Part shown: positions 30,658 through 62,135 of the stretch, piece by piece
Numbering within the stretch: position 1 is the stretch's first letter
Layout: every line of letters begins with the position of its first letter
Assembly (NCBI RefSeq): GCF_000003815.2
Contig: NC_049982.1
Location: 1,147,604-1,211,603 of the forward strand
DNA length: 64,000 nt
Reading direction: 5' to 3'
Origin: Branchiostoma floridae
Taxonomy: Eukaryota > Chordata > Leptocardii > Amphioxiformes > Branchiostomatidae
Translations under genes and position numbers: made by a program
Notes under the pieces: model-generated
Told to the model about the DNA's origin: nothing
Database searches by the model: none
The model's input: only the letters and a program-made list of their open reading frames with translations

Positions 30658-30700
30658 CAGCTGTTTGGTTCTCACTCGGGTCCCGGGATAAGGTATAAAT
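30658..30700 (+). promoter_or_regulatory. Array gene A core promoter
   Basis: CAGCTGTTTGGTT at 30658-30670 is followed by TATAAAT at 30694-30700, 66 bp before the chosen ATG. The same block precedes all six array genes. A and C share an ACTCGGG...GATA version and further upstream similarity (CCGCGACAGGTCAA). CAGCTG is an E-box; TGTGGTT in the paralogues matches a RUNX-type site, changed here to TTTGGTT. Confidence 0.7.
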
Positions 30701-30765
30701 TGCCACACACAGAGCAAGTCACACTTGTATCGAAGGTTATGTGCTCAACTCAGCATACAGAAAAG

Positions 30766-33700
30766 ATGTGGAAGTTCCTGATCTTTATGGCCGCTGTGGC
30801 CGCCTGGCCGGACTCATCACAAGGTGAATAGAGTTATTGAGTATCTTGTGTCGCATTTTCAGTTCACCATTTATGTCAGGTTTGCCAATAGACGGAGCCA
30901 CATCTCCAGCACGTAACATAACCCACCACATTTATCGAAAAGATCAGGGGTCCTTTCCGGTGTGAGTGCATCAATGCATTACGTCTGGATATGCAGCTTG
31001 TACTCTTTAGTATAAATATGATGTGTTAGGTGTGTTACCGGTATGTAATACAAACTAACAAGCAAAATGTGTCGATCCATTTTCTCTCAAGGAGACCTAG
31101 GAGAAAGAAAATTCCATAGAACTCTCTACGTGGCGTGGTGGCTGTCTTACAAACATAGCCCCCGCATGCATGATCGGGGGATGTACAATTATTGCGTCCT
31201 TTTGTGCGTTTGAAAATGGGACCCACCTTTAATGATAGTCCTCCGACGTGTAGTCAGTTTGTAGTTTTATGATGTGAATGGTGAAGGAAGATGTTTTTCT
31301 TAAATTTGACCTAACGTTTAACGTTGAAACTATTGTTATGGAAAAAATTTACCCGCTCTTTGATTTAGGTAGATTATGTGACTTTTAATTTTTTCGTAAA
31401 ATTGTTTGTTTATTTCTTTCTGTTTTTGTTTCTTTAACTACACAATACTACTTTTTACAAGCAAGATGTACATTCTTCTTCAAGTGCAAAATAAAGTGCC
31501 ATTCGCACAATAGGTAAATCTCATCAGGCTTAAAAATAGTTTTTAACAATAAGTTCAAGCTGCGTATATTTGCACTCTAAGATTCGATCTCCCCTGACCT
31601 ACTATAAGTGTGGTGTGATTTTCTAGATGTGTCTGTCATCAAAAACGAGATACTTAACTAGGATCGTTTGGTATTAATGAATGGATTGAATGTGATTATT
31701 GGCAGCCAGCCTTACATGACAGAGATCATACGACGAGCGTTACTTGATTTCGGAGATGATCCCTGACAGATATCTGGAAATGACTTTTACAATCTTTCAT
31801 CTTCTTTAAGGTCAACAACGGTACCTGACCAGCGTCGACGGCTTTGCGTTTTACAAAATTCGCGCTTCTGGGAGGATGACCAATGCCAACGTAAAGGTCA
31901 CGTGCGAGGCGGCGGGGATGAGGTACCCCTGTCACTGGTCAGGTATGGCTGGGTGTACCAGCTACTGGACCTCGGGCTGCATCGCGTATGACGGCACCGG
32001 TGTCGGCTGTAGTACCAACCAGGTCCTCTCATCAAAGCTGTGTGGAAATACTGACTTTCGGTACTGTCAGCCTCTGGATGACACCTTTGTGTATATCCCT
32101 GGCTGGCGGAGTGATGACAGCGCCTACGGTGTGGACTACGAGACTCACACCCACAACCTGCAAGGAGCAAACTTCAACAACAAGTACGCCCTGTGTGCAG
32201 GTACGGGTCAAAGGTGTCATTGCACTTAATTAATAATAATATAGAAAATGTCGGGTTAATTGAGCTCAACGCAAATACATTGTGTACAGGCAAAGCATCG
32301 AAAGGGAATTTAGGCTATGGATATTAAAACATGTCATATAAATACAAAAGATCAAAGTATGTCTGTAACGCATTATTGCGCGACGTTTATCCTACATCCA
32401 GTCTTTGATAACTGCGCGTCCTCCCCATGCACACATGGAACTTGTACGAATGGAGTGGGGAGCTACACCTGTAGCTGTGAGAACGGCTGGGAAGGGACGG
32501 ACTGTGATCAAGGTTTGTCGTGTTATGCTATACTCTGATACAATCGAACTTTAAGTAGAAAACTCATGTTTAATCATCCTATTTTCGTTACTGATAACGC
32601 AGTGGCAAGAAGAGGAATTTGAGTCGGCAATTCCGTTTAAAGTATAGTGGTGGATCGAAAAGATTAAAAGGATTAAAAAAAAGCTTTTGCAAAGGTGTTA
32701 GAGGTTTGGCTTAGAGGTTTAGGTTGAATTTCTCTTCCTAGACATTAATGAATGTGCGGCCTCCCCATGCACACATGGAACTTGTACGGACGTTGTGGGG
32801 AGTTACACCTGTAGCTGTGAGATCGGCTGGGAAGGGACGAACTGTGATCAAGGTAGGTATCAAATGTTAAACCATGCTTTGTTGCAATCGAACTTTATGT
32901 ATGTAACTACTTCAGACCACTCTATATAGTATTACGTTTACTATCATTAGTGGTGACTCAACGGTTAAGTGGAAGAAAATGCGTCGTAAAATTTCATTTA
33001 AAGTATAAGTGGTGGTGTTGTGTGTTGAGTGGAAACCCCGCACAAGTATGTCAAGTGGTAGGGCCCAGAGGGGAGGGAGCCACGGGGACAAGGGTCAGAT
33101 TAGGCACTTCTGGCGGGAATCGAGGAAGTTGGCCATGTGTGAGGAGAGATGAAGAATAAAATGAACTGTACGTAGATCGTGTGTTTGTGAACTTGAGTTT
33201 CGAACTTAACAGGTGGATTGAAAAGATAGCTTGGCAAACGATTTGCATTTCTTATAGTATTTCCTTGTATGATTTACCATATAATAGTTTGAATTTCTTT
33301 TCCTAGACATTAACGACTGTGCGTCCGGTCCATGTGAGCATGGAACCTGTATGGATGGCTTGGCGAGCTACACATGTAGCTGTGATAACGGCTGGGAAGG
33401 GACGGACTGTGGCCAAGGTTAGTATATTACATTTGCCACAAGCATATAAGAAAACTTAAAGTAAGAGGTCGTTGTTTTATTCACTATTTCATCCCAACTG
33501 CAGTTACTGTATTAACGTTTAGATATTCTTTAAAATATGCAAATCTCTCGATCCATCAATTTGAAGAATTTTGAAAACAGCCTAACTTCACCAAGCAGAT
33601 GTAACGTAACGTAACGTAACGATAAAACGTATTGTCTTTTGCAGGTTTTCGTCTATTGATTTTGATGGGACATTTGTTTCTTTTTGTTTTCTTTTCCAGA

Positions 33701-36700
33701 AATCGATGATTGCGCGTCCTCCCCATGTGTACACGGAACCTGTAAAGACGGGTTTATGAGCTACACCTGTAGCTGTGAGAACGGCTGGGAAGGGACGGAC
33801 TGTGATGAAGGTTTGTGTCGTAAAATCATTTATCACTTGAACAAAAATCATTGAACAGAGCTCGAGTCATTATTTGCAAGGTCTTATCACTCAAAGTAGA
33901 AGATACAGACGTCTAGACGCGTGATCATGTGATGTGATTTGATTTTAACCCTCAAACCACCGTATGGGGTCAAAACTGACCCCAGGCGTATACCAATGTG
34001 TGCCATTATGTCATTTCTGATTGAAAACGAATTTCCTTCCAGGAGTTTGTTTGTATATATGTCCTATAACTTCTTATACGTTTTTACCGAGATTGGCTCA
34101 TTGTTGATTAAGTTATCCTAGAAAGTTTATGCATGGTGCAGTGGGGTCAAAACTGACCCCAGCATTTTTTTAAACGAACTTTTGTGACCCACACCTAAAC
34201 TACTTATTGTAGGATCGTGAAATTTTCAGAGAATGATGTACATGTAAGCCAAAATTATTGTAACAACTTTCGTGCTATTATCATGTAATATGACGACATT
34301 ATGACGTCATCTAGGTAATATCGGCCGCCATCTTGGATTTTGACTGATGACATCATCAAATTAGCATAAATTATGAATATTGAGTCATGAAATTTACGTT
34401 GAATTTTACAAAATGTGATAAGCAACTGTTATTTTCCAAGAAAACCTTAAAACTTAAATGTTTTATACAAAATTAGAAAATTTCGTAATAAATATTTCTG
34501 TCAGAATTCCGTTGCCATGGCAACGTGAAAAATGATGAACATACTTTGTTCACTGAAACTGTTTGCTATCAACATTTTCTAAAAGTCACCAAGTTTGGTG
34601 GCCCTAGCATAAGCCATTTGGGCGCTATATGGCATTGAAGTTGGTACAGGCATCAAAAACCTCCTTCCCGGTCTGAATAGCGTTGGTGCAAAATGTGGTC
34701 CTCAAGATCTTTTGCATAAATTATGATAATGAGCTAAAAGTATTCTCACCTAATCATGTAAGACTGTTCCACATAGATCAATGAAACTATACTTATATAC
34801 AAATCACAAAAAGAGTCACACAAAAAAATGTAATTGTACAAAACGTTTTGGGGTCAGTTTTGACCCCATACGGTAATCTACGTCACAAAAAAGCTACGGT
34901 GGTTTGAGGGTTAAAAACAGGTACGTTTTTAATGTTACAGATATCGACGAGTGTGCGAGCAACCCTTGTTGGCTGGGAGGGACCTGCCTGGATCACGTGG
35001 ACGGGTACAGCTGCGTCTGTCCTAAGGACAAGACGGGCAAGAATTGCGAAACTGGTATAGCTTCTTGTACTCTGACATAATAGCTTAAAAATAGTAGCTT
35101 TAACGTTCACTTTATGTTAACAAACACAGCAAGGTTTACCATCAGACGTGTATATAAATTTATATAAAATATATTTTGATATCTTAGGGCCTTTTAGCGG
35201 AGAATGCTACGAGTTTTCAACCGTAGCCTTACCACACCGTGAGGCGACAGAGGCCTGCAGCACCAATGGCGGCCGCTTGGTGGACGTGAAAGACGACAAG
35301 CTGCAGCGTTTCCTCGCCGACAAGATCTCGGTCACCAGCCGCGCTTCCAACTGGCTGGCTATGAGAAGTGCCCCATCGCCGGTCTACTACAGTGACGGAT
35401 CCTCTAGTTCAGGTATAACAGTCTATAGAGTTTTGATGCAGTTTACTTTGAACTTAAATACAGTATTGCGTCATACATTCATTCTAGATCAGTGAATGAT
35501 GTAAACGTAAGTACTTGCTAATTCAAACGCTGAAGAAAAATATAAAGCATAGGCGTGAAACTATGTCAACAAAGTATGTACGCTCTGTGCAACTGTTAGC
35601 ATACTTTCTCTGCCATACAATGTGATGTATATCTTAACTGATATTGTTTTAGAGCATCGGATAGTTTATTTATTGTCCGAAAAAAGGCTTTGCGTTTCTG
35701 CCAGGTTCCCTTCAGTGGTCAGCAGAAGAACCGTCCTCCCCTTTGGACCTGTGTGTTCTCCTGGACAGTTCTGACAACTACAGGGCTAAGACTGTTTTCT
35801 GCTCGGAACAACACAACTACATTTGCGAGTCTGGTAGATCATTCTTTTCATCTATTTTCTTAAGACACTTCAGATTAGGTGTGCTAGTTATCAACGTGAT
35901 TTCCAAGTCAAATCCAATGTTACGAATGTGATTCATCATGAATCATGCACAAATGTACAAAGATTTGAAACGAAAGTCACGTGCACCTACCAGTCACAAA
36001 CATGAACAGTCGTCAGAACATCCAACAATGAAGTCAACTCGCATATGAAGATACTTGCTCACAGACTGCCTCAATCTTCCAGAGGATACTTAGTATGGAA
36101 TTGCCAAAAAACTGACATTTACGACATATTTTTAATGATTCCAGCTGCCAAGCCCTGTGAACCAAACGTGTGTCAGAACGGCGGAAACTGCACCTCCTGC
36201 TTCAACGGCTCCAGCACCTTCTGCGACTGTCCTGAGGGGTTCGATGGAAGAACGTGTGAAATAAGTAAGTGCTGTTTACTGACATGAAGGTAAGAATGTA
36301 CATTTCTGTCGATAGTTCTGGTTTCCTAGACTGGGTGCTTATTCGGACTCGTTTAATGCAAATTAAAAAAAACGCATCACGTGTATTTGAAATAAGAATA
36401 TTTTCACAAAGAGCTTGATGTGTAAACGTTTTTACAGACATTGACGAGTGTGCCTCCAATCCGTGCCAAAACCATGGAAGTTGTGATGACGGCATCAACT
36501 CCTACAGCTGCCGCTGCCTCCTCGGGTTCCAGGGCGACCACTGCGAAACAGGTTTGAGTGGCACTAATTTCTTTGGCATTGAGCATAACCGGCAAATATC
36601 ATGAAAGATATCCAGTCCTAATGTGAGAGATAGGCAGGGAGAGATAAAGAATCTACATGATCCTTAAACAAGATATCTAGAAATGTACTTGGAAATCTTC

Positions 36701-37149
36701 AAAACAAAAATGGATGTTTGAATGTGTTCAAATGTGTAAAAAAAAGTGCTACTACCTGACGGGAAAGATTCATCAGAACAATATTAAGTGCTAGGACAAA
36801 ACTTCACATTATAGATTTATATATTAATATCTGCATCTTTATTACTTCATATACGTATCTTTTGATCTCAGTGAAAACAGCCTGTATGCTATGATTTGAG
36901 TTTAAAAAAAATATCTTTGTTGTCTAGTCCCAGATCGGTGCAACCCAGACCCATGTCCGTTAAGCTGGACATGCGTAGATCACACCTTGTACTTTTCGTG
37001 CGGTAAGTAAACCTCTTTAGTTGTATATTATTCTATTTCATCCTTGTGAAGAATATCAAGGAAAATGTCCGAACTTGGCATTGTGATTTGATCCATGACA
37101 TTTTCTATTTGATATGATATACGTACAATCGTTTACGGCTAATTATAAG

Positions 37150-37212
<63 letters not shown>

Positions 37213-37521
37213 CAGTTATCATAATCTCATATCTGCATCTTTGTATTTCATTAAAATTCTACAATAAAACACAGTAGACAAAATGCAATTCAGGCAAGTG
37301 TACTGTGCAGACTGTGAATAATACAGAAACCCTTTGCTATATGTACAAGCAATGTAGTCGTGAATGGTTCAAAAGTCCTGAATACGAGTATTTTGCATTC
37401 GTACGCAGACCCTCCTTCAGCCAATCGGATGGTCTCCTACCAGTGCAGTAGCGCCTCCTGTCCGGACGGCATGTACTGCACCGAGGAGGGTGCGGCCTCT
37501 TTCTCGTGCAAACCTGAGTGA
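30766..37521 (+). CDS. Array gene A: secreted 8-Cys domain / EGF / C-type lectin protein
   Basis: Thirteen exons, all joined in phase 1: 30766-30823, 31811-32200, 32402-32512, 32742-32852, 33307-33417, 33700-33810, 34941-35054, 35188-35412, 35705-35833, 36145-36264, 36438-36551, 36928-37002, 37409-37521 (593 residues). Order: signal peptide ([14 protein letters not shown]); eight-cysteine domain with [11 protein letters not shown] and KYALCAG; five EGF repeats (several GWEGTDCD); a C-type lectin-like domain over two exons ([12 protein letters not shown], then DLCVLL and HNYICES); two EGFs; two four-cysteine modules, the last ending SFSCKPE. The lectin domain lacks EPN, QPD and WND calcium/sugar motifs. 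An in-frame ATG at 30739 also exists; MW is conserved in all six genes. Role unknown: likely an extracellular recognition or matrix protein. Confidence 0.85.
33945..34914. mobile_element. Non-autonomous piggyBac-like element in gene A intron 6
   Basis: TTAA target sites at 33945-33948 and 34911-34914 enclose inverted ends: CCCTCAAACCACCGTA on the left, and ACGGTGGTTTGAGGG on the right. The palindromic motif GGGGTCAAAACTGACCCC occurs near the left end (about 33966), again at about 34142, and inverted near the right end. About 962 bp without a transposase frame. TTAA plus CCC/GGG termini are typical of piggyBac relatives. Confidence 0.75.
37150..37211. repeat. (TA)n(TG)n microsatellite
   Basis: A run of AT dinucleotides followed directly by GT dinucleotides, in the last intron of gene A. 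Confidence 0.95.
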
Positions 37522-37626: not shown

Positions 37627-37632
37627 AATAAA
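37627..37632 (+). terminator. Gene A polyadenylation signal
   Basis: AATAAA in GAAGAAAATAAAG, 106 bp after the stop. The same 3' UTR string occurs after gene C. Confidence 0.75.
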
Positions 37633-39144: not shown

Positions 39145-42100
39145 ATGTGGAAGTTTCTGCTCTTCATTGCGGCTGTGATCACCTGGCCGGTCTCATCACA
39201 AGGTAGGTATGAAGTTCTAATACATTATTTGTCATCTTACATTTCAATCATGCAACTATTTTATTGGCAATGATACTTAGTGCCAAGTAACCAGTAATTA
39301 TTCTGTAACAAACTAAATAATTACATTATTGGCGAATTGAGAGATGTACAACTATTTTCAACTTTCATATTTAGTCCCCCTCGGAAACGCCCAAACAGGG
39401 TTACCGTAATAAACAAATCCAAAGCACATCTTTAAATCTGGAGATTATAATTCTATGAAGTACCGGTTTAAAAATGACGTCAATATCTTACGTCCTTTAA
39501 AGTCCGTTAGGTGGGCACTATGCAGACAGGCTTTGCTGTACATGATATGATTTTTTCGCTTACGTCGTGTGCTCAACTGAGCGGATACGCGTTGATACAG
39601 AGGGGAAGTTCTTGTTTTACTTTGCACCACGAGGAAAGCATTGTTATGCGCAATTTACCACTACATAATGTACCGACCATACATTACATCTTCTAAATAC
39701 TGTAATGTAACAAGGTAGATGAATGGTGGAGTTTATGATTGCGTAATGATGCTGATTTTTATTTGTTTAGAAAATAAAGCAATGCAAGGTAGTAATTGTT
39801 TTACTCGTTTCCTTGCTTGTTTGTTAGGATAATCAGTAATCTGCCTTCAGGCCTTAATCAACATGAATCTTTTGTACAATAAGAACACGTTGCGTATATA
39901 TATATGTAGGTCCGGAATGTGAGGTTAATTCCTGAATGTGTACCTTCTTTTAGATAAGTGTGTTTTTCTCTAACATGCCCTAAGTGTAAATTAAACACAG
40001 GATTCTGAACGAGGACCGTTAATCTACGGAGTGAATGCGACGATTGGCTGGCACTTAAATGAGTTACTGAGTACTTCAAAGATGATCCGGTTAAGGTTAA
40101 ATTTCCAGAAAAGGAAAATGGTAAATGTTTTATCTTCAAGGTCAAAGTGTTTACCTGACCACAGTTGACGGATGGGGATTTTATAAAATTCGCACTGCCG
40201 GATCGATGACTAATTACATGGTGAAGGCCGCGTGTGAGGCGGCGGGGATGAGGTACCCGTGCTATCACTCTGGCGTGGACTGGTGTACCAACGTCTGGTG
40301 GACCTCAGGCTGCATCGCGTATCGTCACGGCGCCGATGTCACCTGTGATACTCACTGGATCCTCTCGGCAAACCTGTGTGGAACGCTGGACCCTCGGTCC
40401 TGTCAGCCCCTTGATGACACCTTTGTTTACATCCCTGCCATGGCTGGCAGAGTGACGACAGCGCCTGGGGAGTGGACTACGAGAGTCATACTTACGGCCT
40501 GCAAGGAGTACACTACAACAACATGTACGCGCTATGTGCGGGTAAGAAAGCGTCGATATGTCGTGAGTTTTTGGGAGCCTCTATGTTGAAGCATACACAT
40601 AATCATAACGTTAAATCGTCGATTTATCTTCGTGGCAATCGCATCATTAATCTATTTTGATGAATATTTTAATGTGTATAGATTGGACTTGTTTGCCGGG
40701 AATAGAAAAATAGGTTCACCATAATATTCTTATTGTTTACCATATGATGATTTGGAAAATCATTGTCGTATTAGATATTACAATTGGCTGTTGCATTTAA
40801 GCATTGGTTGATTGTTACACGGCGAGTAACTTCTCATATCTAAAAAGCAGATAATCAGACTGATTGGAAAACAGGAAGGTGATTTTTCGCGCTTTTGGAT
40901 ATTTGAATGCTATAGTCATATCAATACATTCCAACGTATAGTGGTTTGCTTTTATTGTAAGTTAGCCATGTAACAATGGATTTAGTATTTATCAGGCTCC
41001 AACAAATAAACGATTACTAAAAAATTGTGACAGCCCCTACGTGCGCGAGATCCCCATGTTTCCATGGAACCTGTACCGATGATATCGGGGGCAACACGTG
41101 TACGTGTGAGAACGGCTGGGAAGGGATCAACTGTGATCAGGGTATGCACTCTTTGTATTGAATTAGATTGATTCCTCCATCGTGTATGGGTTTATCGTCT
41201 GGTATTACTTACAATCAAATTTAGAGGGGACACCTTTGAATAATCACATTATACATTTCTAAGTGGCAGTATAGCAGAATTGTATTTCTAATACAGTAAA
41301 ACCAGGTGCCCAAGCGACCATCCCTTCAAGCCGACCACCTGGTCATTACGACCGTTTTTTTTCTCAGTCTATTCTAGGTAAGATGCCAACCACAATACAT
41401 GAAAGCGAAATACATGAAATCGTTAATATCTTCGCCAGCAGAAGGCTACAATGGTGGAGTGGCTGAGGATGTCTGTGTGTTTGATGTAAAGAGCACAAAA
41501 TGCCATTATTAATATTCATGACATTCAGTAGATTAGTTGTGGGAGAGATAAAGGTCATCTTCTAGAACGGGCCCACTAGCAGTTTCCTATTGCACCAAAG
41601 TGGAACTAAGTAAAAGCTTTAGACCTAAGACCTCTTCCAGGAATTTCTTGTGATTTTTTTTAGCGGTGAATAACTTTGGGGTCAAGAATTTGGTGGTTAT
41701 TGAAATATTATAAACATATTTTAAATGTCCTGAATATGCAATAAACATTTTGTTGTAAACTAGACATCGACGAGTGCGCGAGCAACCCTTGTTGGCTGGG
41801 AGGGACCTGCCTGGATCACGTGAACGGCTACAGCTGTGTCTGTCCTAAAGATGCCACTGGCAAGAACTGTGAAACTGGTACGCTATATACAATATTTAGC
41901 AATAAGCACAATACAGCTCTCTCAGTATCCTTCGCATATCTCCGGATCGATCCGTCTTTCTCTCCTCTCTCGCTATGGAGCGCTCACACGGGTGCGTATA
42001 TTCAAGTCCGTATGAGATCCGTATTTACATTGTTTTGGGTTTTGAAAAAATTTGGGCCCAACAAGGTCTTCTTCGATAACCTAGTTGCATATTAAAGACA

Positions 42101-44471
42101 AAGTAGAATATAACTTCTTCCTGGCAAAATTTAACTAAACCAAAGGACAGCCAATACGCATTTCATATCTTATACGGACTTGTATAGGTGCACTCCCCGT
42201 CGCCGCCAATGTAGACAAGCCATTGGCTACCTTAGACAAAAATTAAATGTTGCAGTCATCATTTATGTGGTCCTTTAAGTTCATGCAATCTTTGACAATT
42301 TCTCTTACACTTATGGTCAGCACAAGTTTATCCCTTTTTTATTTACTGTTTAGACATATCACGTTCCCTTTTGAACATCACCCTGTAGCGACTTTTTCCG
42401 GAGAGTGTTACCAGTTCTCGTCCATCGCTGCCTCCTATCGCGATGCGGCCCTGACCTGCCGTACTACAGACGGCCGCCTGGTGGATGTGAAAGACGAGAA
42501 GCTGCAAAGTTTCCTCGCAGAGAAAATCGCTGCCAGCAGCGGCGTTTCCAACTGGCTCGCGATACGAACCGCTCCATTGCCGCTTGTGTACAGCGATGGA
42601 TCTCCTCTTTCAGGTGTCCTGATGCACAAAAAGTGGAATTTGCCAATAGTGATGTATATACCGGGTAAATCCGGTAATGGTTGCTTTCGGCGATACATGG
42701 CACCAGAATATATGTGGATGTATTTGTAGATATTGGTAATTTGCACTTGTACGTGGATTCGGCCATCCATATCTAACTACATGTGTTCCTCAAGCTTTTA
42801 TGAAATCATATCCAAGGTACGTCTGGAAATGGCAAAAAACTATATTATAAGTCTCATAATCTATGTCTTAGACAAGTGTGTAAAATAGTAGCTAGTATGT
42901 CATAACTTTTTGAATTTACCTTGTGGTGACAATTCAAGATACTGGCTCATTACCAAGTTTTCAGCGCGCCATGGTTTTTTCATTTGACACTTTTCTAATG
43001 ACAGGTGATCTTCAGTGATCAGCCGGTGAGCCGTTGTCCCCTTTCGACCTGTGTTTTATTTTGGACAGCTCTGATAACTACAAGGCAAAGAAAGGCCCAT
43101 GTACGGAGCAACACAACTACGTCTGCCACTCTGGTATGTAAAAGATTCTGTATTATGTTCTGGACTAAAAGAAACAAAGGGATATCAGGTATACTCGCAG
43201 TTGATTCCAGCTCTCAAACCCTGTGAACCAAACGTGTGTCAGAACGGCGGAAACTGCACCTCCTGCTTCAACGAGACCACCACGTTCTGCGGGTGTGCTG
43301 ACGGTTTTGGAGGAAAGTTTTGTGAAATCAGTGAGTATTTTACGACTCGCATTTTCCACTCATAACGTGTTTTGCTGCTACTTGTTAGCTTCAAATGCTT
43401 GTAGTATTAACAACTAAAATATGTGTATATTCCTGACATTACTTTAATCTACATTATTAATTTTCCCTCACTAAAACAGCATGCACAAGTTGAAAGCGTT
43501 GCATTTTGATGCCTCTAAAACTTTGATATTTGCAGACATTGACGACTGTGGCTCCAACCCGTGCCAACATGGCGGAACTTGTCAGGATGGCGTCAACTCC
43601 TACAGCTGCAGCTGTCCAACCGTCATAGGAACCGATTGTGAATCAGGTCAGTGTGGTCTCACTGTGGCCTTTTCAAAATAATATCTTGTCTAAGTGGCAA
43701 TTGTTTAGCCATTTGGAAGCTGTCTTTGCCCTCGATTGATCTGATTGCACCTTTCTATCTTGTTGCTATATAATCGCATTGAAGACAATATCATTTAAAG
43801 TTAATAACTTGAAAATCTATTTATGATAAAAGAGAATCAGCCGTGTCATGCATGGTTTGAACTGTGCATACGCGTTGTTGTACAATTTGTCAAAAGTGAA
43901 GTCCCCTGAGACAAAACGTACGTCTGACCATGTATAAAGCTAAAGCATAGTCTGGAAATGAAGTTAGGGGCCTTCACCTTTCACTTCGTGTTTGAATTGT
44001 TCAGACCATGTTCAAACCCTTGCTGAAATGTACATTATGTTTTTGATGGCGTGCGTTGTTAACTAAATAATTTATACAAAATAATACTGAGTATGACATT
44101 GTATTTCTGTACTATTGCAACACCTCAACCTTTCTTGTCTCTCATTCCTATTTTTCATTAGAAGTGGACTGGTGCTCCCTGGTCCAGTGTCCGTTCGGTT
44201 GGGTCTGCCAGGTTTCCACGTCCTCCTTCCAGTGCGTCGGTGAGTGCAATTCTTGCTTCTACATGTATATATGTATTCATGCAATACACGGTACTAGTAT
44301 ATAGATACCAGTATGTATATATATACCGGTATGTATATTGGTATATATTTCCTTGCAGATCCTGCTCCCATTGTCCGGGAAATACCTTACCAGTGCAGCA
44401 GCGCCTCCTGTCCGGATGGCATGTACTGCACCAAGGAGAGCGCCGCGTTCTTCTCCTGCAAGGTTGAGTGA
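39145..44471 (+). pseudogene. Array gene B: disabled EGF / C-type lectin paralogue
   Basis: The exon plan is intact: 39145-39202, 40141-40541, 41034-41141, 41764-41877, 42389-42613, 43005-43133, 43211-43330, 43536-43646, 44162-44239 and 44359-44471. The order is signal peptide, eight-Cys domain, two EGFs, two-exon C-type lectin domain, two EGFs, two four-Cys modules. Two lesions break it. A 5-bp insertion (CCATG, about 40438-40442) shifts the frame late in the eight-Cys exon, and TGA at 43016-43018 replaces the Trp codon found in A and C (LQW) at the start of the second lectin exon. All splice sites and the final stop are still normal, so the damage is recent, or one or both lesions are allelic or assembly errors. 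Length without them would be close to 480 residues. Confidence 0.7.
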
Positions 44472-45430: not shown

Positions 45431-48400
45431 ATGTGGATGTTTCTGCTTTTCTCCGCGTCTGTGATCGCCTGGCCTGACTCGTCAGAAGGTGCGGTTTCTT
45501 ATTATCCTTGCTTTGTCACTTAACTAGTGTGTAATAACTCACTTAGCAATAACATTTAGCAATGGATTCGACTGATTTTTGTTCACCATTGATCTGAGGT
45601 GTGGAAACGGTTGAGAAGAGGGGAGGGGCAGTGTACAAAGAAAGTAATTTGATAATCCGGAAATGCTGGCTTCTTTCAGGTCTAGGGTTATTGGATTTTT
45701 TTACGGAATTAACGCGATTGTTGTCTGATATTTTAATATTACGAGTGAACGGTTGAATGATTAAAAGTTTCGTCAACGTAATGAAGAGTAAACTGACCCT
45801 TCCCTTATGACTTCAGCTAGGTTTCGCTGCTGTAGTGTGAAGATTGCGGATAATGTTGTGTTGAATGGAGTTTTTGCTCAATGATTAACCAACCGGATGT
45901 AGCTACCCATGGGGATACGGTGTTATCAAATTTACATGGTGATTTCTAGTAGCTGTTTTGAAATGAACATGACTAAACTTTTTTTTTTTATCTACAAGGT
46001 CAGCGCGTGTACCTGACCACTGTCGATGGATGGGGATTTTACAAAATTCCCACTGTTGGATCGATGACGAACTTCAAGGTGAAGGCCACGTGTGAGGCGG
46101 CGGGGATGAGGTACCCTTGCCACTACTCAGGTAGGAACGGGTGTCCCGGCGCCCACTGGACCTCAGACTGCATCACGTATGACGACGGCGGTATCGATAT
46201 ATACTGTCGTACCCCAAGCGTCCTCTCAGCAAACCTGTGTGGACATACTGACCCTAAGCGCTGCCAGCCCCTTGATGACACATTTTCGTACCACCCTAAC
46301 TGGCTGAGTGATGGCAGCGCTTGGGGAGTGGACTACGACACTCACACCTGGGAACTACATGGAGCAGACTACAGCAACATGTACGCTCTGTGTACCGGTA
46401 AGGAGCGTAGGTGTGATGAAAATGATCGGTTAATTCCTGTTTACACTCAGACAGCAAAATACAATTTTTGTTATTGATATTCCAACATGATATATAAATC
46501 CTTGAGCTAGCAAACAATTTGCGCAATGCTTGCAACAAGTTGATGATGATGACGTAACAAATTATTGCAAGACGTGTATCCTACTCGCAGACCTTGATGA
46601 CTGCGCGTCCTCCCCTTGTGCTCATGGAAACTGTACGGACGGAGTGGGGAGCTACACCTGTAGCTGTGAGAACGGCTGGGGAGGGACGGACTGTGATCAA
46701 TGTAAGTGTATTATTACTACTATATGCATGGTGCTCTATTTCATATTGGTTATGACGCCGTAACGCACAGATTTCCTGTGTTAAACGGGTGTTAAAAATC
46801 TTAAAACCTGACCAATCAGAAAGAGTGATACTCAGGATTTTAACCAATTAGTACATAGAGGAAAGATAAGACCACGCAAGGAGGAATGATCATGGGTACA
46901 CTATAGTAAAAGTTTGAATAGGTTTAACATGCCAAGACTACAATGTTCCGAATATTTTCAGTGTAAATTTTGGTTTCAAAATTCAATCTGTAATCTCCTT
47001 ACAAATGTATGTACCAAAGAACAAATGTGAACCTTCAGGAGTTCGACAACGGAATTCAAACGTACTAAGGGATCTATGCGTCATACATTAGTTTGCAAGT
47101 TTGGGTAGGCTATATGATGATACCGTTAATGACCCACTTGTTCCTTGGTGTATCTGGTGTCATAAGGCCCGATCCTTATTTCATTCCAACTAGATGAAGC
47201 ATAACCGTCTAACATTAGATCAATTCTGATATAAAAACAGTACGCCTTTTCAAAGCAGATGTTACAAAGGGCTCAACATGTTATTTTGTTTACAAGTTTT
47301 TATCCATTGATCTTGATGAGGCATTTGTTTTACTTTTCTCTCCAGACATTGACGACTGTGCGTCCTCTCCGTGTGTACACGGTAACTGTACGGATGGCGA
47401 GGGGAGTTACACCTGTAGCTGTGAGAACGGCTGGGAAGGGACGGACTGTGATCAAGGTTAGCGTCGTAAAATTGATTACGAAAATGAACTAAAGCAATCA
47501 CTAAAACAATGCCCTGCAACAAATTCGTGGAACTATGTCAGTATTTATAAGGTCTTACCGCTTCAATGAAGAGGATGTAAATGGCATGCTTTGATGTGAT
47601 TCAATTCTATTAAAAAATGAAAGTACATTTTTGAGTGTTGATTGCTACAGATATCGACGAGTGTGCAAGCAACCCTTGCTGGCTGGGAGGGACCTGCTTG
47701 GATGACGTGGACGGTTACAGCTGTGTTTGCCCGAAAGACAAGACGGGCAAGAACTGCGATATCGGTACTACTTTTATTCTCTAATATTGTAGCTTAACAA
47801 AATGTAGATTTTACTGAGTGTTTATAATAACAAAACACAGCCAGGCTTACCATTATATGTGTATATAAAAATCATGTTTTGGCCATGGGTTTTAAAGTAT
47901 GATATTGGTTTGTTTGAACAAATTTTAAAATAACATTGTCTAAAATTTACTACATTTTAGGACCTTTTGCCGGAGAATGCTACGAGTTCTCCAACGTGGC
48001 TGTAACACATCGTGAGGCGACAGAAGCCTGCAGTACCAATGGCGGCCGCTTGGTAGACGTGGAAGACGACAAACTGCAGCGTTTCCTCGCCGACAAGATC
48101 GCGGTCACCAGTCGCGCTTCCAACTGGCTGGCCATGAGAACTGCGCCATTGTCTGATTTCTACAGTCACTGTGATGGATTTCTTAGTGCAGGTATGGTGT
48201 ATTATGGGATATCGACCTAATTTGATAATGAGATTGTGCCATAATTAGGAGCTTCTCATCATATGTGTATATTTGAACGCTTCTTCCAATGCTACAACCA
48301 GTCCATGGCTTCGGCTTGCATCAAAGGGTGTGTTAGGGCCCAATACACAGTTAGGTATGATATGTCTTGGTTTGGTTAGGGTCACCACATGAACACTCGG

Positions 48401-50279
48401 CTTAGTACGTTCTCTCTAGTTCTGCCTACCCTGATTTTGGTGCTCTTCTGGGCTTCATTCGCTTCTGGGTAGACAGCAACTATTCCTAAAATGATAAGGA
48501 ATAAGGGAAGTGAGATTAGTACAAAACTATGTCGTTTATGCTGGAAGAGATCTGCATAACCTGGTTGCCGATGGTCTAACAACAAATTTGCGTTTATGGC
48601 AGGCTCCCTACAGTGGGTGGGAGGTGAGCCTTCCTCCCCTTTGGACCTGTGTGTTCTCCTGGACAGCTCCAACAACTACATGGCAAAGGCTGCTTTCTGC
48701 ACGGAGCAACACAACTACGTCTGCGAGTCCGGTAAATCATCTACTTTGTCTATTTCCTTACGACATTATATATGTAGATACGGTGCAACCCACTTGTTTT
48801 CCATGTCAGATTCGACACATACTTGTCTTCATTATCCCATGTGGGACATAAGGCTGGAATAAAATTCGACACGGATCATGTCGGCATATGGAAAGGCATA
48901 AAACTGAGGAAAATGTTCTAAAATCATATATAGCCGACAGAGACTTCAGATCGTCATCTTGAATAGGTTATGAGCTGAAGCAATGTCTCAATCTACCTAT
49001 AATGTAAGATATGTATAAGGTATAGTTAGGATAATAAAAAGGGACATATCAGGTGCTATTTGATGTCGATTTCAGCTGCCAAACCCTGTGAACCAAACGT
49101 GTGTCAAAACGGCGGAAACTGCACCTCCTGCTTCAACGACTCCAGCACCTTCTGCGACTGTCCTGATGGGTTCGAGGGAAGGACGTGTGAGATAAGTGAG
49201 AAATTTCTGCATCTGTATCTGTATATAATATAATTTGAATATAACTCATGCACGGCTGTTTAAGTTTTTTAATAACCCTGATTTTCTATAGACCGGATGA
49301 TCATAGTGACTATTAAACACTTTGGGCTTGGAGTTACGTTTTTGCTATTAATTGCTTTAATATAAAAGTCTGATGTTCCTTTGAAATTACAATATTTTTA
49401 ATTAAGGCTAAAAAATATGAAAACATTTGAACAGATATCGACGAGTGTGCCTCAAATCCGTGCCAAAATGGCGGAAGTTGTCATGACGGCATCAACTCCT
49501 ACAGCTGCAGCTGTATCGGCACGTTCCAGGGCGTCCACTGTGAAGCAGGTTTGTGTGCTAGTCCTTTTTTTGGCATTAGGCCATACACATTAAATTGTAT
49601 GGAAGACGCCCATATCTTATACGGGAGACCAAAACAAGAATGTTTATGAGCCTGAAAGCAAGATGTATAGATATCATCTCGATAATTTGCAAAACTTGGT
49701 GTAGCAACAAAACTATAGAGAGAAGGCCGCCAGCAGAACTTCATCAGACCTTACCTGAAACTCAGATTTTGTGTGTTCTAGCCCCGGACTGGTGTTCTCC
49801 AGACCCATGTCCGCCAGGTTTGACATGCGTGGATCACACGTTCTACTTCCTGTGCAATGGTGAGTAAGCTGTTATTTTGGTATAGTGATGAACATTATTT
49901 TGTAAGGTTTGCCCTTGAGTCAATAAGATAAGGAACTTCCCTAAATGATGCATCGATAAATAAACAAATAAACATCCTGATTGGCACTTTACATCGTGAT
50001 TTGATTCAAAACTTTTTTCTATTTTGTATGATGTCTTTACAGGTAGACTAGATATATGAAAACAGTTTTTAACAGACCACAACTTTGTGAATGATACAGA
50101 AACTTTCAGGTATGTCGTAATGACTAGCTTAAGACTTTTGCTAGATAATTTTGCATCCGAACTTAGATCCAGCTTCAGCCAATCGGATGGTCTCCTACCA
50201 GTGCAGCAGCGCCTCCTGTCCAGACGGCATGTACTGCACCGAGGAGGGCGACGCCTCCTTCTCGTGCAAACCTGAGTGA
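45431..50279 (+). CDS. Array gene C: secreted 8-Cys domain / EGF / C-type lectin protein
   Basis: Eleven exons in phase 1: 45431-45488, 45999-46397, 46591-46701, 47346-47456, 47651-47764, 47961-48191, 48603-48731, 49076-49195, 49435-49548, 49782-49859, 50167-50279 (525 residues). Order: signal peptide ([14 protein letters not shown]), eight-Cys domain, three EGFs, C-type lectin domain, two EGFs, two four-Cys modules ending SFSCKPE. It is the closest relative of A but has two fewer N-terminal EGFs. The first lectin exon is two codons longer than in A and B and carries an extra, apparently unpaired cysteine (SHCDG). Calcium-binding EPN, QPD and WND motifs are absent. A short upstream ATG (45423) is out of frame. 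Function unknown; a secreted recognition or matrix role is inferred. Confidence 0.85.
46920..47150. repeat. Dispersed element in gene C intron 3 (inverted partner at 57690-57890)
   Basis: Read on the opposite strand, the order of blocks (CAAACTTGCAAA, ATGACGCATAGATCCCTT, TTACAGATTG, AATATTC) matches 57700-57870. The two copies are in opposite orientation. Confidence 0.65.
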
Positions 50280-51860: not shown

Positions 51861-52276
51861 CTTAGGCACTTAATAACACATAGATCGGTAAAAGAATCGA
51901 AGTTCTTCGCCTTCGCCAGCGATGCTTTGGAAGTTTATGAGCAATATTTGTAGCATTTCGTCAACATCAACAAGTTTTCAACACTCAGACATTGTCCAAA
52001 CGCGCGAATATGCTTTTATGTGCGTGGAATCTGTGAATGTATGTGTATGTGTGTCATGGATGGCGTGGGTCGCGAACTGACTCTTCTGGCTCTGGCCGGG
52101 CTGTCTCCCCTTGAGCATACTACTCCCTCTATAACCCCCCTCCCCCCCTCCACATACACACACATTTCCACTTAGTAGAGACATTTCCACTTCGTCTAAC
52201 ACCAATCTTCCGCAACTAGGTTCACGCAATGTCAACACATCCATCAGAAATATTAATTGCGCCCGTCCCTACTGGT

Positions 52277-52316
52277 CAGCTGTGTGGTTCCCATGGCCTT
52301 GGTGTACATTATAAAT
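52277..52316 (+). promoter_or_regulatory. Array gene D core promoter
   Basis: CAGCTGTGTGGTT at 52277-52289, CCATGGCCTTGGTGTAC, TATAAAT at 52310-52316, 63 bp before the ATG. Confidence 0.7.
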
Positions 52317-52379
52317 TGCCGTGCACAAAACAAGCTTCACGCATTACAGAGTCTGGACTCACCTCAGCATTTGGTAAAG

Positions 52380-55290
52380 ATGTGGAAGGTTCTGCTCTTC
52401 ATTGTGGCTGTGATCACCTGGTCGGACCCGGCACAAGGTGGGTACAGAATTTCTGACATCATTTGTGACTTTTGTAAAATACTCCTATTAGACTATGTCA
52501 TTTATCAATAAGTGCTTTTGCCATCGTTTGTATCAATTAAGCAAACCCTTTCCTCATTTGGGATGTTTGATATCTGTTAAATTTCCATCACCATGAGTTA
52601 CACAAGATATCATTCGTCACTTTCCATTCAAATCCCTTAATGATTGTTCTAGCAGCAGTTCTAGCATACAGTGCCTTAAGCCACTCAGCGCCTGAAATAA
52701 CTCACTGGGCCACAGGAACAATAAGTACATATTATGAATGACACCCTCTGCAAACCACAAAAATAATGAGCGAAAGAAGATAAAAGATTTGCAAAAAAAG
52801 TGGCTAAATTTTTAGAATAAACCAAAGACGTTTTCATGATCTGAAGTGCACTCGTGAAGTAAAAGTGACAATAGTTTTGTAGATTGGTACCACTTACGAC
52901 ATTGGCAATTTCACTATTGGTGCAACCATTACAACTGTCCAACTAGATTCACTTTTACAGAACTTTCTCGCTAGTGTCATAAGTCAGCAACACAGCATAT
53001 TTGCAAATGTATGGGCAGATCGTTGTTCATGCCCTTTTAGCGTGTACATCTCCAAAAATATACGTCTCCCTCCGAAACACACATAACCAGTGCTGAACAT
53101 CTGGAGATTATGATTGACCGGTTTGCAAAAATGCTGATATCACGCCTCTTTTACGATTACCCCTGTAAGCTTAACTCGTTTACAATATGATCTGAATTTG
53201 TTTACAATACTATTTGAAACAACACATTTTTTTACAATGAGTACAAGCCACGCATATTCGGACTGTGAAGCTCGATCCACCATGGCTTTTCAACAATTTT
53301 GTCGGGTGTCTATGTGAAGCTTTCATCAAACACGAGATTATCTAACTTGGATCTTTATTTACAGCATGAATTTGATTATTGTATGTCTCTGTACTTATAT
53401 GTCAGAGATCGTACGTGTTACTTGATGTCTGACGAGGGGATCTCCTGACAGATATTTTAAAATGTCTTGTACAAAAATTTCATCTTGAAGGTCAACGTGA
53501 GTACCTGACCACCGTCAACGACCGTCTGTTTTTCAAGATTCGTGTGTCCGGCCCGATGACCAATGCTAACGTGAAGGCCACCTGCGAGGCGGAAGGGATG
53601 AGGTACCCCTGCTACCTGTCAGGTACTGCTGGGTGTATAAATGTAACTAACGGCACCACCTACTGGACCGAAGACTGCATCACCTATGGCGACACCGGAG
53701 TCAGCTGTTATACCCACGAAGTTCTCTCTGCAAACCTGTGTGGAGACACTAACTATAATTACTGCCAGTCCCTTGATGACACCTTTGTGTACATCCCTGG
53801 CGGGCAGAGTGATGACAGCGCCTGGGGATTGGACTACGACAATCACACCTGGGGGCTGCGTGGAGCAAACTACAACAACATGTACGCTCTTTGTGCAGGT
53901 AAGAGATGTTTTTGCACTAAACAGAAAGGTCTTGCAAATCCATGATTTTCTTGCTGTTTTATTATCAAAAGTCACATACAAAGCATAAATCTATTATATT
54001 GGTAGTCAATAAATCCACAGCATTTAGATGTCGTGAAAAGCCAAATACTACAATTAAACCACAATTGCCTGATATTACGTAATAACTAAACATACAAAAA
54101 TAAATTCATGATTAAGAGTTGCGTGTACATTCCCCGTCCGTGGGGTTCCTAAAAAGTTCGGTATAGATAAGATTAAATGTTTTGACACATGAAGATGAAG
54201 AGACAACGATGATCACTTTCTGTTCCATTTCAAAGCCGAAAAGGTGTACCTGACCACGCTAGGAGGCTTGGAGTTCGTGAAAGTTCCCGCAGTTGGTGCG
54301 ATGACCAATCCCAACGTGAAAGCAACGTGTGAGGCTGCGCACATGTGGCATCCGTGCGGATGCTCGGGTAGTCTTGATTTTTGTCATCAGTGCGACAGGG
54401 ACTCGTACGTACCCTGCATCGTTTTTCTCGAGAACGGAGGGTCGGGGTGCCTCTCAACTCTCTTGTCTATCTCGAAAAGTCTGTGTGGATACATGGAAGC
54501 TTGGAACTGCCAGCCCCTTGAAAACACCTTTGTGTACTTTCCCGACGGGACTGGCAATGGTGCCATGGCCATCGATAACGTCCAAGTTGGCCAAGTCCTG
54601 CATGGAGCAAACTACAACAACATGTACGCCCTGTGTGCAGGTAAGAGTACAGACTCTCGATGTAAAGGTATGAGAGAACAAGTCTTGGACATCTCAATAC
54701 TCCCTGTGTATTATTAAATTGCTGCTAAACGCAATATCTGCCGAAAAGGTAGTCTTATTTTCAATAACTACAATCTTTAAACATGTGGACGGAAGATCAT
54801 GGTGTTTTCGCTATTGCCAAAGTAACATAATTGTTTTCAAATGTGTGCATAACACTATGATATTTAAGCTTCCGATTAAGTTAAATTTGCCGAATAAGTT
54901 AAATTTGTCACATTGGAAAGCTCCACTGTGTTGGTAGTAATCATAGTACTACATTCAACACAAAAGTGTACGCGGAACAAATTTTCAACGAAGTTCTGAA
55001 GTGATTGGTCAGTAAGGTATTGATCTTGAAAAGGCGACACTGGTCGTGAAAAGTTTGATCCGTGTATACTTTTGTGTTTGGAGAAAGTTTAGTATTGTAC
55101 TATGAATTTTTTTTGTTTGTTTTATTGGGATCTCCATTAATGATGCACACATGTAGTATCACTATTCTTCCTGGAGTCCTACACAATTGATATACGATGG
55201 AGTCATAAAAAGTCGAATCTAACGATGTAACGATTGATCCTTGCAGTACATCCGCAAGAAGTTATTCCCGACGTCATCATCACAGGCTGA
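52380..55290 (+). CDS. Array gene D: secreted protein with two 8-Cys domains
   Basis: Four phase-1 exons: 52380-52437, 53491-53898, 54236-54640 and 55247-55290 (304 residues). Signal peptide (MWKVLLFIVAVITW) is followed by a first eight-Cys domain like those of A-C (starts GQREYLTTV) and a second like that of E (VYLTTLGG, then FVKVPAVGAMTNPNVKATC). The second has two additional cysteines (GC and QC), making ten. The last exon adds only 14 residues ending VIITG before TGA, closely related to the tail of E. There are no EGF or lectin exons. An NxT site lies in domain 1 (NVTNGTT). The upstream ATG of the paralogues is TTG here, which supports the MW start throughout the family. Function unknown; secreted. 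Confidence 0.82.
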
Positions 55291-59281: not shown

Positions 59282-60396
59282 ATGTGGAAGTTCCTTCTGA
59301 TCATCGCGGCTGTAGTCGCCTGGCCAGCATCAGCTCAAGGTGACTATACGATGTTAATTGTAGATTTCGAATTACACGACATATCACAGATATGGGAGTG
59401 ACATATATTGTTATTGCTGTCAAATGATACTCCAAATTAAACGAAGCATATACTACTTCTTAGTTCTGTGTTTGCGAAGTTTGTATTTGACGGTTTTAAT
59501 TTACGAGTTGGGAGAATGAAGGTATGTTTCAGTACTCCCTCGGAACGTTAAATGTTTTAAAATATATAGATGTAGAGACAGTGATCACAACTCTTTGTTT
59601 GATTCCATAGCTGACAATGTGTACCTGACCACGGTAGGAGGCTGGGATTTCTTCAAAGTTCCCGCGGTTGGTGCGATGACCAATCAGAACGTGATGGCCA
59701 CGTGTGAGGCGGCGGGGATGAGGTACCCCTGCTTCTGGACGGGAACAGGCTCCTGCACTTCTAGTACTTACTGGGGAGGCGGCTGCATCAGGGTTGACGA
59801 TGGCGGTGGCCATTTCTGCCATACTTTCATGGCCCTCTCGCATAGCCTGTGCGGAAACATGCAAGCTTGGCGCTGCCAGCCCCTTGATAACACCTTTGTG
59901 TACTACCCAAACTGGATCGGGAATAATGCCCTGGGCTTGGACTACGACAGTGGCCAATCTGCTCTGTACGGATCTGGCTATTACAACATGTACGCCCTGT
60001 GTGCAGGTAAGTGACGTTTGCAGACTCTCAGTGTAAAGTTATAAGAGAACAAGTCTTGGGCATCCTAATACTGACTGTGGACTATAAAATTGTTGCTAAA
60101 CGCAATATCTGCGTTAAAAGCAAATAGTCTTTTGGTCAAATAACTACTGATCTTTAAACACATGAACGAAAGATCTAGACGTTTTAGCTATTGTCAAAGT
60201 AACATGATTATTTTGATATGTGTACATGATACCATGTTATTCAACTTTCTTTCTTTCGTCGAGCATTCGATCAAGTTAAGATTGTCAGCTTTTTCATGTA
60301 TTTTCTATGCGAGGAACGGCACGTATTAAAGTTGAATCTCACCATCTGGTTGTTGATCCTATCACAGTGCGATCCCAAGACGTCATCACAGGCTGA
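59282..60396 (+). CDS. Array gene E: small secreted single 8-Cys-domain protein
   Basis: Three phase-1 exons: 59282-59339, 59611-60006 and 60368-60396 (160 residues). After the signal peptide (MWKFLLIIAAVVAW) the mature protein is essentially one eight-cysteine domain: [49 protein letters not shown] and NMYALCAG. The short tail ends DVITG. It is the minimal member of the family and shows that the domain can stand alone. Domain 2 of D is its nearest relative here. An in-frame ATG nine bases upstream (59273) gives an MVKMW start; MW is chosen because it is shared by all members. Function unknown. Confidence 0.82.
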
Positions 60397-60455: not shown

Positions 60456-60461
60456 AATAAA
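60456..60461 (+). terminator. Gene E polyadenylation signal
   Basis: AATAAA in GCAGTGAATAAAATTTAC, 59 bp after the stop. Confidence 0.75.
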
Positions 60462-60939
60462 ATTTACAACTCCATACTGCTTGCCTCGTTTTTTTGTTGA
60501 TGTGACATTATATGACATTACTATTAATACTAACAGGGTAGGTCAAGGATTGTTGACACAAAGATAGCTACAATTTACGCACACTTCAAATATGGTTCCT
60601 TTTGCACGTTATGTTAAGATGTAAAAGACGATTGTTTAAAGTTCGGTCAAAAAACACGAATCGCCTTATGATATCCAGGGACAATGAAGTTGTAATAGCA
60701 TAAATGTATGACTAGTTCACCTTAGTCCGTGGGGTAATCTACATCAATTGTTTTAGAAAAAAACAGGGAATTTAGAGATATCAAGAAGATGGACGGTTGT
60801 TTTAAAATGCACTTTAGAAGTATTGCAATCCTTTCATTCCCTTTCCTTTATCAAAATGAGTAAGTCTTCCAAAATACCATTGCAGAGTTGCTCAGTGGCA
60901 CCTGCCCATTTCAGGCAAGTGAACTGTTATCAGCCTATG

Positions 60940-61440
60940 AAGTACGTGTGTCTACAAGCAGGGTCATGGGTCAGGATTTGTTGGTACGGTGGCAAGGTCA
61001 TGGAAAGGTAACATAAGTGTAGCTTGAGTGCTGACTAACACAGAGATCGATATAAAAAAAGTAACTAGGGGATCATCACCAACAAGGCGTTGTACCTTGA
61101 GTAAACTTTTTGCGACCGTTTGCCAAGCTCTTCGCGACTGAAGGCAACGATAAAACGTTAAGATGCAGGTATCCTTTACATTTTAGATGTTAAGTATACC
61201 TATATTTGGCATGAAGAAAAGAACGCCAAGTTTCAGTCCCTTCATAAACATTAAGGAAAGACGGCGGGAGGGTCATAGAAAGTTACTTTAGGTAACGTTG
61301 GTGATGAGTGTTGGTGATACAAAGATACCAGCGTGTACGTGCGTCAACAGGCCGGGTTAAGGGTCAGGATTTTGTTGAAACAGAGGCAGGGTCATGGAAA
61401 GGTAATATTTGATAGTAATGCTTGGACGCTGACGACAACG
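60940..61440. repeat. Spacer repeat copies between genes E and F
   Basis: Copies at about 60940-61050, 61265-61325 (partial) and 61330-61440 share GGTCAGGATTTTGTTG.-type blocks, GGTCATGGAAAGGTAA and GCTGAC.A-type blocks. The remainder of 60462-61974 shows no gene. Confidence 0.7.
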
Positions 61441-61974
61441 ATCTACATAAGAATCTCCATGATGAGTAAAAGTGGCAGCTGCTCGCCAGGCTCTTAAGTC
61501 CCCAAATCAAATCCCCAAATGACTTTGATGAAATCTCATTTGTTTGCCACTTGCCATGAATATCAGTTCTTATTTCTTCCACTTGAGGACCGTGGCAAAA
61601 AGTTTACGTCAACAATTTTACATGACTACTACAGTAATACAGTCACCCGTTTTAATCCAAATTAAACAAAACGTCACCATCAACATATTATCGCTTTGTG
61701 TCAACAGACTTCACAATTTAAATACAGCCAATTAGACACATATGATATGCAGGAGCAGACAAGGACACATATAATTACGCACGGGTACAACTTGCCGGAA
61801 ACTACAACTGATCATGCATGGATATTGCAAGATGGGTTAATTGAAGGGTGCACAGCGTTGATGCGACGTAGTTATTATTGACTGTATAATTTTTCAGCAA
61901 TCAGTCATGACAAGGTTCACACAATATCAAAACATCCGTCATCATAGATATTAATAGCGCGCGTCCCTACCGGT

Positions 61975-62014
61975 CAGCTGTGTGGTTCCCATGGCCTTGG
62001 TGCAATGTATAAAT
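61975..62014 (+). promoter_or_regulatory. Array gene F core promoter
   Basis: CAGCTGTGTGGTT at 61975-61987, CCCATGGCCTTGGTGCAA, TATAAAT at 62008-62014, 63 bp before the ATG. Confidence 0.68.
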
Positions 62015-62077
62015 TGCCGCGCACAGAAAAAGCTTCACACATTACAGAGTCTGGACTCGACTCAGCATATGGTAAAG

Positions 62078-62135
62078 ATGTGGAACTTTCTGCTCTTCGT
62101 CGGGGCTGTGATCACCTGGCCGGAATCGTCACAAG
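62078..62135 (+). CDS. Array gene F: signal-peptide exon only (partial gene)
   Basis: A 58-nt exon encodes MWNFLLFVGAVITWPESSQ plus one base of the next codon, ending at CAAG|GTGGAT, in phase 1 like every other family member. No eight-Cys exon is found in the remaining 1.9 kb, although the corresponding intron is 0.3-1.1 kb in A-E. F therefore either continues beyond the window after a repeat-expanded intron, or is a stranded promoter plus first exon. An in-frame upstream ATG is at 62069. Confidence 0.6.

Follow-up and report, generated by a model that had tools for sequence, protein, structure and literature searches.

Lancelets are described in PMC4284660 as undergoing very fast exon shuffling biased to the 1-1 phase. 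In two lancelet species, C-type lectin genes (PF00059) are over-represented among the dispensable genes, which some lancelets possess and others lack (PMC12373286). The latter enrichment uses Pfam and GO, so that the eight-cysteine (8-Cys) head domain dealt with here would not be counted. In B. belcheri, an EGF-like gene and a ‘C-type lectin 6’ with neighbouring identifiers are both listed among the 15 most poly(I:C)-induced genes in PMC5752451. The present work concerns a window, by which the whole analysed stretch of 64,000 nucleotides (nt) is meant, of contig NC_049982.1 of Branchiostoma floridae (C4 hereafter; C4:1147604-1211603, + strand), in which a tandem array of units, numbered U1 onwards, encodes proteins combining the 8-Cys domain with EGF repeats and a C-type lectin domain.

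The array would represent a lineage-expanded family of secreted lectin-like proteins whose diversity stems from tandem duplication and from recombination within phase-1 introns, recognition or defence being a plausible role; judged from the sequence, we place this reading just short of an even chance. The 8-Cys domain is the new part of the finding, and the evolution of the family fits mechanisms reported for lancelets.

Architecture and mosaicism of the array

A tblastn search of the whole window with the signal peptide of U1 itself (E 2e-11 to 1e-5) located six + strand signal exons, at 30766, 39145, 45431, 52380, 59282 and 62078, each having a GT donor after 58 nt. With exon borders defined as AG/GT pairs in phase 1, the internal exons are of lengths divisible by three, the 8-Cys exon of U2 being the exception (phase-1 borders together with multiple-of-three lengths were recorded for the internal exons of U1, U3, U4, U5, U6 and U7), and the spliced products amount to 593 amino acids (aa) in U1, 525 aa in U3, 304 aa in U4 and 160 aa in U5. 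All of this agrees with the original prediction, which had listed six units in one orientation, a 58-nt phase-1 signal exon, domain exons in phase 1 and these very sizes. The gene models likewise support its description of the proteins as secreted, multidomain and tandem-duplicated, secretion being deduced from the signal exon; inspection of the protein tails by eye, without a predictor, showed neither a membrane segment nor an anchor, and unit-to-unit blastn matches are as strong as E 3e-107, well beyond chance.

The full-length plan consists of a signal peptide, the 8-Cys domain, one to four small EGFs, a conserved EGF, the C-type lectin domain, two EGFs, a half-EGF and a Cys-rich tail, and the short forms (U4 and U5) have only one or two 8-Cys domains, without EGF or lectin. 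The EGF repeats of U1 match PF00008 above the gathering score (94.9 bits over seven stretches, E 3e-27), and a calcium-binding motif can be read in the EGF sequences of the array. The U1 lectin domain (lecA plus lecB), when scanned alone, matches Lectin_C PF00059 with 37.8 bits versus a cut-off of 22.6 (E 3.4e-9); lecA by itself reaches 17.5 bits, below that cut-off, and PF00059 was not listed in the Pfam scans of whole U1 and whole U3. Among solved lectins, PLA2R (7qsr) is the best match in sequence to the EGF and lectin exons, with E 3.5e-19 when several of its domains are summed and 1.3e-4 for the best single one. The EPN/QPD and WND-type residues, which are usually needed for Ca-dependent sugar binding, are absent in all seven lecB exons examined.

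Open frames are retained by U1, U3, U4, U5, U6 and U7. The predicted broken copy is indeed U2, damaged at two places: its 8-Cys exon has 401 nt, which is not divisible by three, with a frame change near 40436-40442, and its second lectin exon is interrupted by an in-frame TAG. The sixth copy, on the other hand, had been called partial owing to nothing but the window edge, as the U6 8-Cys exon lies at C4:1212324, approximately 720 nt past it, and U6 is a complete open 12-exon gene of 558 aa. Six units are thus the content of the window and not the total, since modules continue on the same strand as far as C4:1273252, making 11 units on reading over approximately 95 kb, with 10 signal exons found. 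U7 is full-length, with an open frame of 483 aa; in U8, the signal exon is accompanied by just one 8-Cys exon, and a motif search did not find the terminal exon; U9 comprises a single signal exon, three 8-Cys exons and a single tail, and the assembly gap inside it leaves room for either one mosaic gene or two or more units. The lectin domain of U10 is reduced to a remnant of approximately 60 residues (C4:1258642-1259350, locus L035), in which the first exon runs straight into the second’s last residues, ...GASTSGYYVCQSG, and in U11 the 8-Cys exon is split and no signal exon was found.

U4 is shown to be a DNA-level mosaic of neighbouring units. Over its promoter, signal exon and early intron 1 it matches U2 and U6 (85% over 249 nt; 79% over 395 nt). 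From the end of intron 1 through the first 8-Cys exon the match is to U1 (71% over 691 nt), and for the second 8-Cys exon and its flanks it is to U5 (72% over 715 nt), which the terminal exon region also matches (82% over 166 nt); the switch of partner is placed in intron 1, between 52602 and 53228. Quartet trees of U1-U4 group U2 with U4 for the promoter (support 100) and U1 with U4 for the first 8-Cys exon (support 91), while a six-copy 8-Cys tree joins the second 8-Cys exon of U4 to U5 (support 100). When all copies are included, the U1 and U3 promoter split retains a support of 100, the 8-Cys split of U1 with the first U4 exon (U4a) has only 76, and branches within the U2/U4/U5/U6 promoters have 44-63. 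The pattern fits what recombination in phase-1 introns would leave.

The promoter, predicted to be the same in every unit, is so for U2, U4, U5 and U6 (80-88% identical over -150..+58), whereas those of U1 and U3 are only 63-73% identical to any unit. TATAAA occurs at -60 to -74 in eight of the ten array signal exons (versus 9.6% of random 150-nt array stretches) and TGTGGTT, which resembles a RUNX site, at -83 to -101 in seven of the ten (versus 1.7%); the promoter copies share descent, so that their common motifs reflect conservation within a set of duplicates rather than ten independent events. The block CAGCTGTGTGGTTCCCA is common to the promoters at 39145, 45431, 52380, 59282 and 62078, where it lies upstream of the TATA box, and is one letter off at 59282.

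The 8-Cys domain and its family

All five 8-Cys copies of the window from which an alignment was made (U2 was excluded because its frame is broken) have eight invariant cysteines, with a domain length of 131-137 aa. Searching the genome (513,431,437 bases in 431 contigs) with the U3 domain gave 100 matches at E <=0.001, 103 candidates having been scored; this count is a lower bound for large families according to the warning of the search tool, and the number of genes is lower than that of matches, as some copies are split into two. Thirteen of the 100 matched places, each covering the query in part only, were not used, and 99 rows yielded 78 sequences after the removal of fragments and identical duplicates, from which an 80% identity cut gave a 64-sequence alignment (the U3 window copy replacing its duplicate locus). 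Five of the eight cysteines are invariant in that alignment and three are conserved in at least 90%; eight cysteines per copy were counted in 40 of the 78 sequences and ten in 25.

The placed copies are spread over 17 contigs, and the nearest relative lies within 500 kb for 37 of the 77 copies compared (one truncated unplaced duplicate was dropped), whereas shuffling gave 4.6 such copies on average and at most 14. A unit with identical module order (L079) is found 1.3 Mb off the array. At another locus (L049, C12:16463000-16472999), an 8-Cys exon and a run of N are followed downstream by three occurrences of an EGF-lectin-EGF-EGF module, spaced 2,070 nt; the repetition may mark a member with several lectin domains or may stem from the assembly. 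Two further 8-Cys places with very long open frames were rejected, the frames being runs of N.

The original prediction had spoken of a candidate for an undescribed system, and this stands in so far as no Pfam family matches more than two of the 64 8-Cys copies at E 0.01 and no description of the architecture was found in the literature searched, which was mostly without subscription papers. Three Pfam families do match at that threshold (best E 1.1e-4), each in two copies at most: FGF-BP1 (PF06473; two of 64, best E 5.6e-4, and 14.3 bits on U1 versus a cut-off of 25), Cys_rich_VLP (two of 64, best E 1.1e-4) and ADAM17_MPD (one of 64, best E 0.0056), the latter two being below cut-off on the window copies. 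These matches are treated as probable noise of Cys-rich sequence, although they are not disproved. At E 0.01, no Pfam model of a lectin or Link family is matched by any of the 64 copies, NCBIfam gave nothing for two 8-Cys copies, and PDB sequence searches returned only antibody chains at E 0.29-0.6, or nothing, with no match at E 10 for the 64-sequence profile. A profile link to the array’s own lectin domain was looked for and is lacking (hhalign probability 0.2%), and among 44 and nine pattern matches of the five-sequence alignment in prokaryote and viral contigs, respectively, no relative was confirmed.

With the predicted model of the U3 8-Cys copy, the best 50 of 350 Foldseek matches (E <=10) are all C-type-lectin-domain entries by title, and nearly all of the 50 VIA matches listed are of the C-type-lectin or Link type. 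The fold comparison, made with this one predicted model, suggests that the 8-Cys domain may be a divergent lectin-like (C-type-lectin/Link) fold.

As for the family being fast-evolving, this is true in relative terms. The ratio of nonsynonymous to synonymous divergence (dN/dS) was computed for ten pairs of U1, U3, U6, U7 and U9, only the last of the three 8-Cys exons of U9 being taken, with U2 left out of the 8-Cys comparison for its broken frame and U4, U5, U8, U10 and U11 because the compared exons are missing or broken. It was 0.31-0.68 for the 8-Cys domain, 0.14-0.35 for the lectin domain and 0.13-0.21 for three EGFs, the 8-Cys value being above that of the lectin in nine of the ten pairs (U3-U9 is the exception). 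The difference in dN between the 8-Cys exon and the lectin and EGF exons excludes zero in six of the ten pairs, and all four failures involve U9. For U1 versus U3, the 8-Cys exon has a dN of 0.28, a dS of 0.42 and a ratio of 0.67 (bootstrap 0.38-1.19), and the other shared exons, when pooled, 0.085, 0.45 and 0.19; the difference between the two ratios has a bootstrap range of 0.17-1.00 (1 of 2000 resamples <=0), or 0.06-0.97 against the lectin exons alone. The EGF/lectin body is thereby shown to be more constrained than the 8-Cys head in most gene pairs. In absolute terms, the prediction goes too far: no 8-Cys, lectin or EGF point estimate exceeds 1 in these pairs, so that positive selection is not demonstrated and relaxed constraint is compatible, and paralogue divergence mixes duplication age with selection. 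The 19-codon signal exon has a dN/dS above 1 in four of 15 pairs, with too few sites to weigh.

Feature coordinates and other sequences of the window

Positions of the array features are collected in Table 1.

Table 1. Features of the array within the window (window coordinates).
Feature	Position	Strand	Remark
U1 promoter block, TATAAA at -72	30616..30765	+	
U1 signal exon, 58 nt, phase-1 end	30766..30823	+	
U1 8-Cys exon, 390 nt	31811..32200	+	
U1 four 111-nt EGF exons: 32402-32512, 32742-32852, 33307-33417, 33700-33810	32402..33810	+	
U1 EGF exon adjoining lectin domain	34941..35054	+	
U1 C-type lectin domain, two exons: 35188-35412, 35705-35833	35188..35833	+	
U1 EGF exons 36145-36264, 36438-36551; half-EGF exon 36928-37002	36145..37002	+	
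U1 terminal Cys-rich exon and stop	37409..37521	+	AATAAA at 37627
U2 signal exon	39145..39202	+	
U2 8-Cys exon, frame-broken	40141..40541	+	
U2 rest: EGF, EGF, two-exon lectin, EGF, EGF, half-EGF, tail	41034..44471	+	TAG in lectin exon 43005-43133
U3 signal exon	45431..45488	+	
U3 8-Cys exon	45999..46397	+	copy used for structure prediction
U3 three EGF exons: 46591-46701, 47346-47456, 47651-47764	46591..47764	+	
U3 C-type lectin domain, two exons: 47961-48191, 48603-48731	47961..48731	+	
U3 EGF 49076-49195, EGF 49435-49548, half-EGF 49782-49859, terminal exon 50167-50279	49076..50279	+	
U4 promoter, signal exon 52380-52437, intron 1 start	52220..52602	+	nearest U2 and U6
U4 intron 1 end and first 8-Cys exon 53491-53898	53228..53898	+	nearest U1
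U4 second 8-Cys exon	54236..54640	+	nearest U5
U4 short terminal exon and stop	55247..55290	+	
U5 signal exon	59282..59339	+	
U5 8-Cys exon	59611..60006	+	
U5 short stop-bearing terminal exon, U4-like	60368..60396	+	read by eye; downstream 60383-60543 matches U4
U6 signal exon	62078..62135	+	other 11 exons past window, to C4:1216170

Within the first 30 kb of the window, just one module match scores better than E 0.001, a lectin-like piece on the minus strand (9525-9617, E 1e-4) that falls within a minisatellite; minisatellite arrays with 123-, 93- and 30-nt units occupy 9413-9650 and 10130-10625. A single 889-aa open frame at 1354-4023 (+) contains leucine-rich repeats (LRR), an Ig_3 match of 27.8 bits (just under the cut-off of 30), what looks by eye like a membrane segment, and cytoplasmic tyrosine motifs (YENDDQF/YDND) that are repeated (48-nt tandem repeat, 2926-3053), and its product looks like a putative LRR-Ig receptor with possible tyrosine signalling motifs. 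A mariner-type transposase fragment lies at 16874-17200 (+; HTH_48, 41.7 bits versus a cut-off of 24.1), and Rfam and tRNA scans of the window found nothing. Runs of exactly 100 N, probably scaffold gaps, are present at 4346-4445 and 29946-30045; as the second one ends approximately 720 nt upstream of the U1 signal exon, the join of the array to its left flank is an assembly inference.

Competing explanations and known systems

Were the array a secreted lectin-like family with a role in recognition or defence, the 8-Cys domain would be its variable ligand-binding head and the Ca-binding EGF repeats its rod, while the role of the conserved lectin domain would be in contacts between proteins or in assembly, and not in the Ca-dependent binding of sugars. 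Once released at epithelia, the proteins would attach to glycans or proteins on the surface of microbes or particles, and recombination within phase-1 introns would give rise to new forms, because it always rejoins the shared signal exon and the domain exons in frame. A bolder version, which we find possible but doubtful, would have approximately 100 secreted proteins around a cryptic lectin-like 8-Cys domain constitute a recognition repertoire of a basal chordate, in which variable heads are swapped between neighbours onto a conserved EGF-lectin body, the sets of individuals differ, and the head is missed by Pfam annotation. If the 8-Cys head is indeed lectin-like and ligand-binding, a chordate that lacks vertebrate-type lymphocyte receptors would possess a large and new recognition repertoire. 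Gene counts by Pfam domain, such as those of the lancelet pangenome study PMC12373286, would hide a family of approximately 100 matches or file it as ‘EGF’ or ‘C-type lectin’.

The same conserved body, with its low EGF ratios in all ten pairs, a number of small-EGF exons varying between units, lectin exons devoid of the Ca-sugar residues and the EGF calcium motif, would also suit structural or adhesive glycoproteins of a matrix or mucus, built as EGF rods that bear lectin-like ends and cross-link mucus or cuticle. Copy number would then be driven by the instability of EGF-exon arrays and not by selection for recognition, and the 8-Cys domain would be merely less constrained. We hold this to be rather unlikely, as the short forms U4 and U5, having 8-Cys domains only, possess no rod, and in most pairs the greatest change is in the N-terminal head, not in the body. 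A promiscuous exon set undergoing ordinary birth-and-death, having little function for the organism and with most copies decaying, is an improbable explanation in our judgement; it would account for the broken U2, the collapsed lectin domain of U10 and the split 8-Cys exon and missing signal exon of U11, and would be in line with the very fast, 1-1 phase-biased lancelet shuffling set out in PMC4284660. U1 and U3-U7, however, are open, and their 8-Cys dN/dS of 0.33-0.68 in the computed pairs, taken together with the open frames, means that constraint is present. Fast-changing secreted lectin-like heads acting at fertilisation or in allorecognition would likewise be expected to combine a conserved body with a head that changes faster, and to show duplication and mosaicism, yet nothing in these data points to gonads, and 100 domain matches on 17 contigs are many for such a role, which makes gamete or self-recognition a highly improbable one. 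That the 8-Cys domain has a novel fold or belongs to a known non-C-type-lectin family (e.g., FGF-BP1-like), with the array serving as a growth-factor-binding system, is the least credible of all, since its weak FGF-BP1 matches in two of 64 copies are countered by the sub-threshold score of U1, the Cys-rich nature of the stretch and the resemblance of the one good model to lectin folds.

Compared with known systems, the secreted lectin-like family favoured here resembles secreted multidomain C-type lectin proteins in having PF00059 beside EGF repeats, but differs from them in lacking the EPN and WND-type residues and in having an 8-Cys domain and a Cys-rich tail without a Pfam family. Members of the mannose receptor family, including PLA2R, are membrane receptors with many lectin domains. 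The array’s likeness to these lies in PLA2R being the best solved lectin by sequence and in PLA2R CTLD7 being among the fold matches of the 8-Cys model, whereas the array proteins are small, secreted and equipped with EGFs. The bacteria-binding secreted ApeC proteins of amphioxus are similarly secreted, expanded and endowed with eight conserved cysteines, a number unspecific on its own, but ApeC has approximately 200 aa with DXED motifs (PMC8361754), and as the identity of the shorter 8-Cys domain it is ruled out by length, by the absence of DXED in five of five copies and by the lack of a PF16977 match. A further parallel is that of the exon-shuffled 1-1 phase families of lancelets presented in PMC4284660, with which the array shares 1-1 phase internal exons and the recombination of domain exons between neighbours. 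It differs from them in that it is local, that its units share a promoter and a signal exon, and that a breakpoint has been located inside a single intron. The array looks like a local case of lancelet exon shuffling, showing at the DNA level how a shared signal exon and phase-1 domain exons let neighbours exchange parts, and making fast lancelet exon shuffling testable at one locus.

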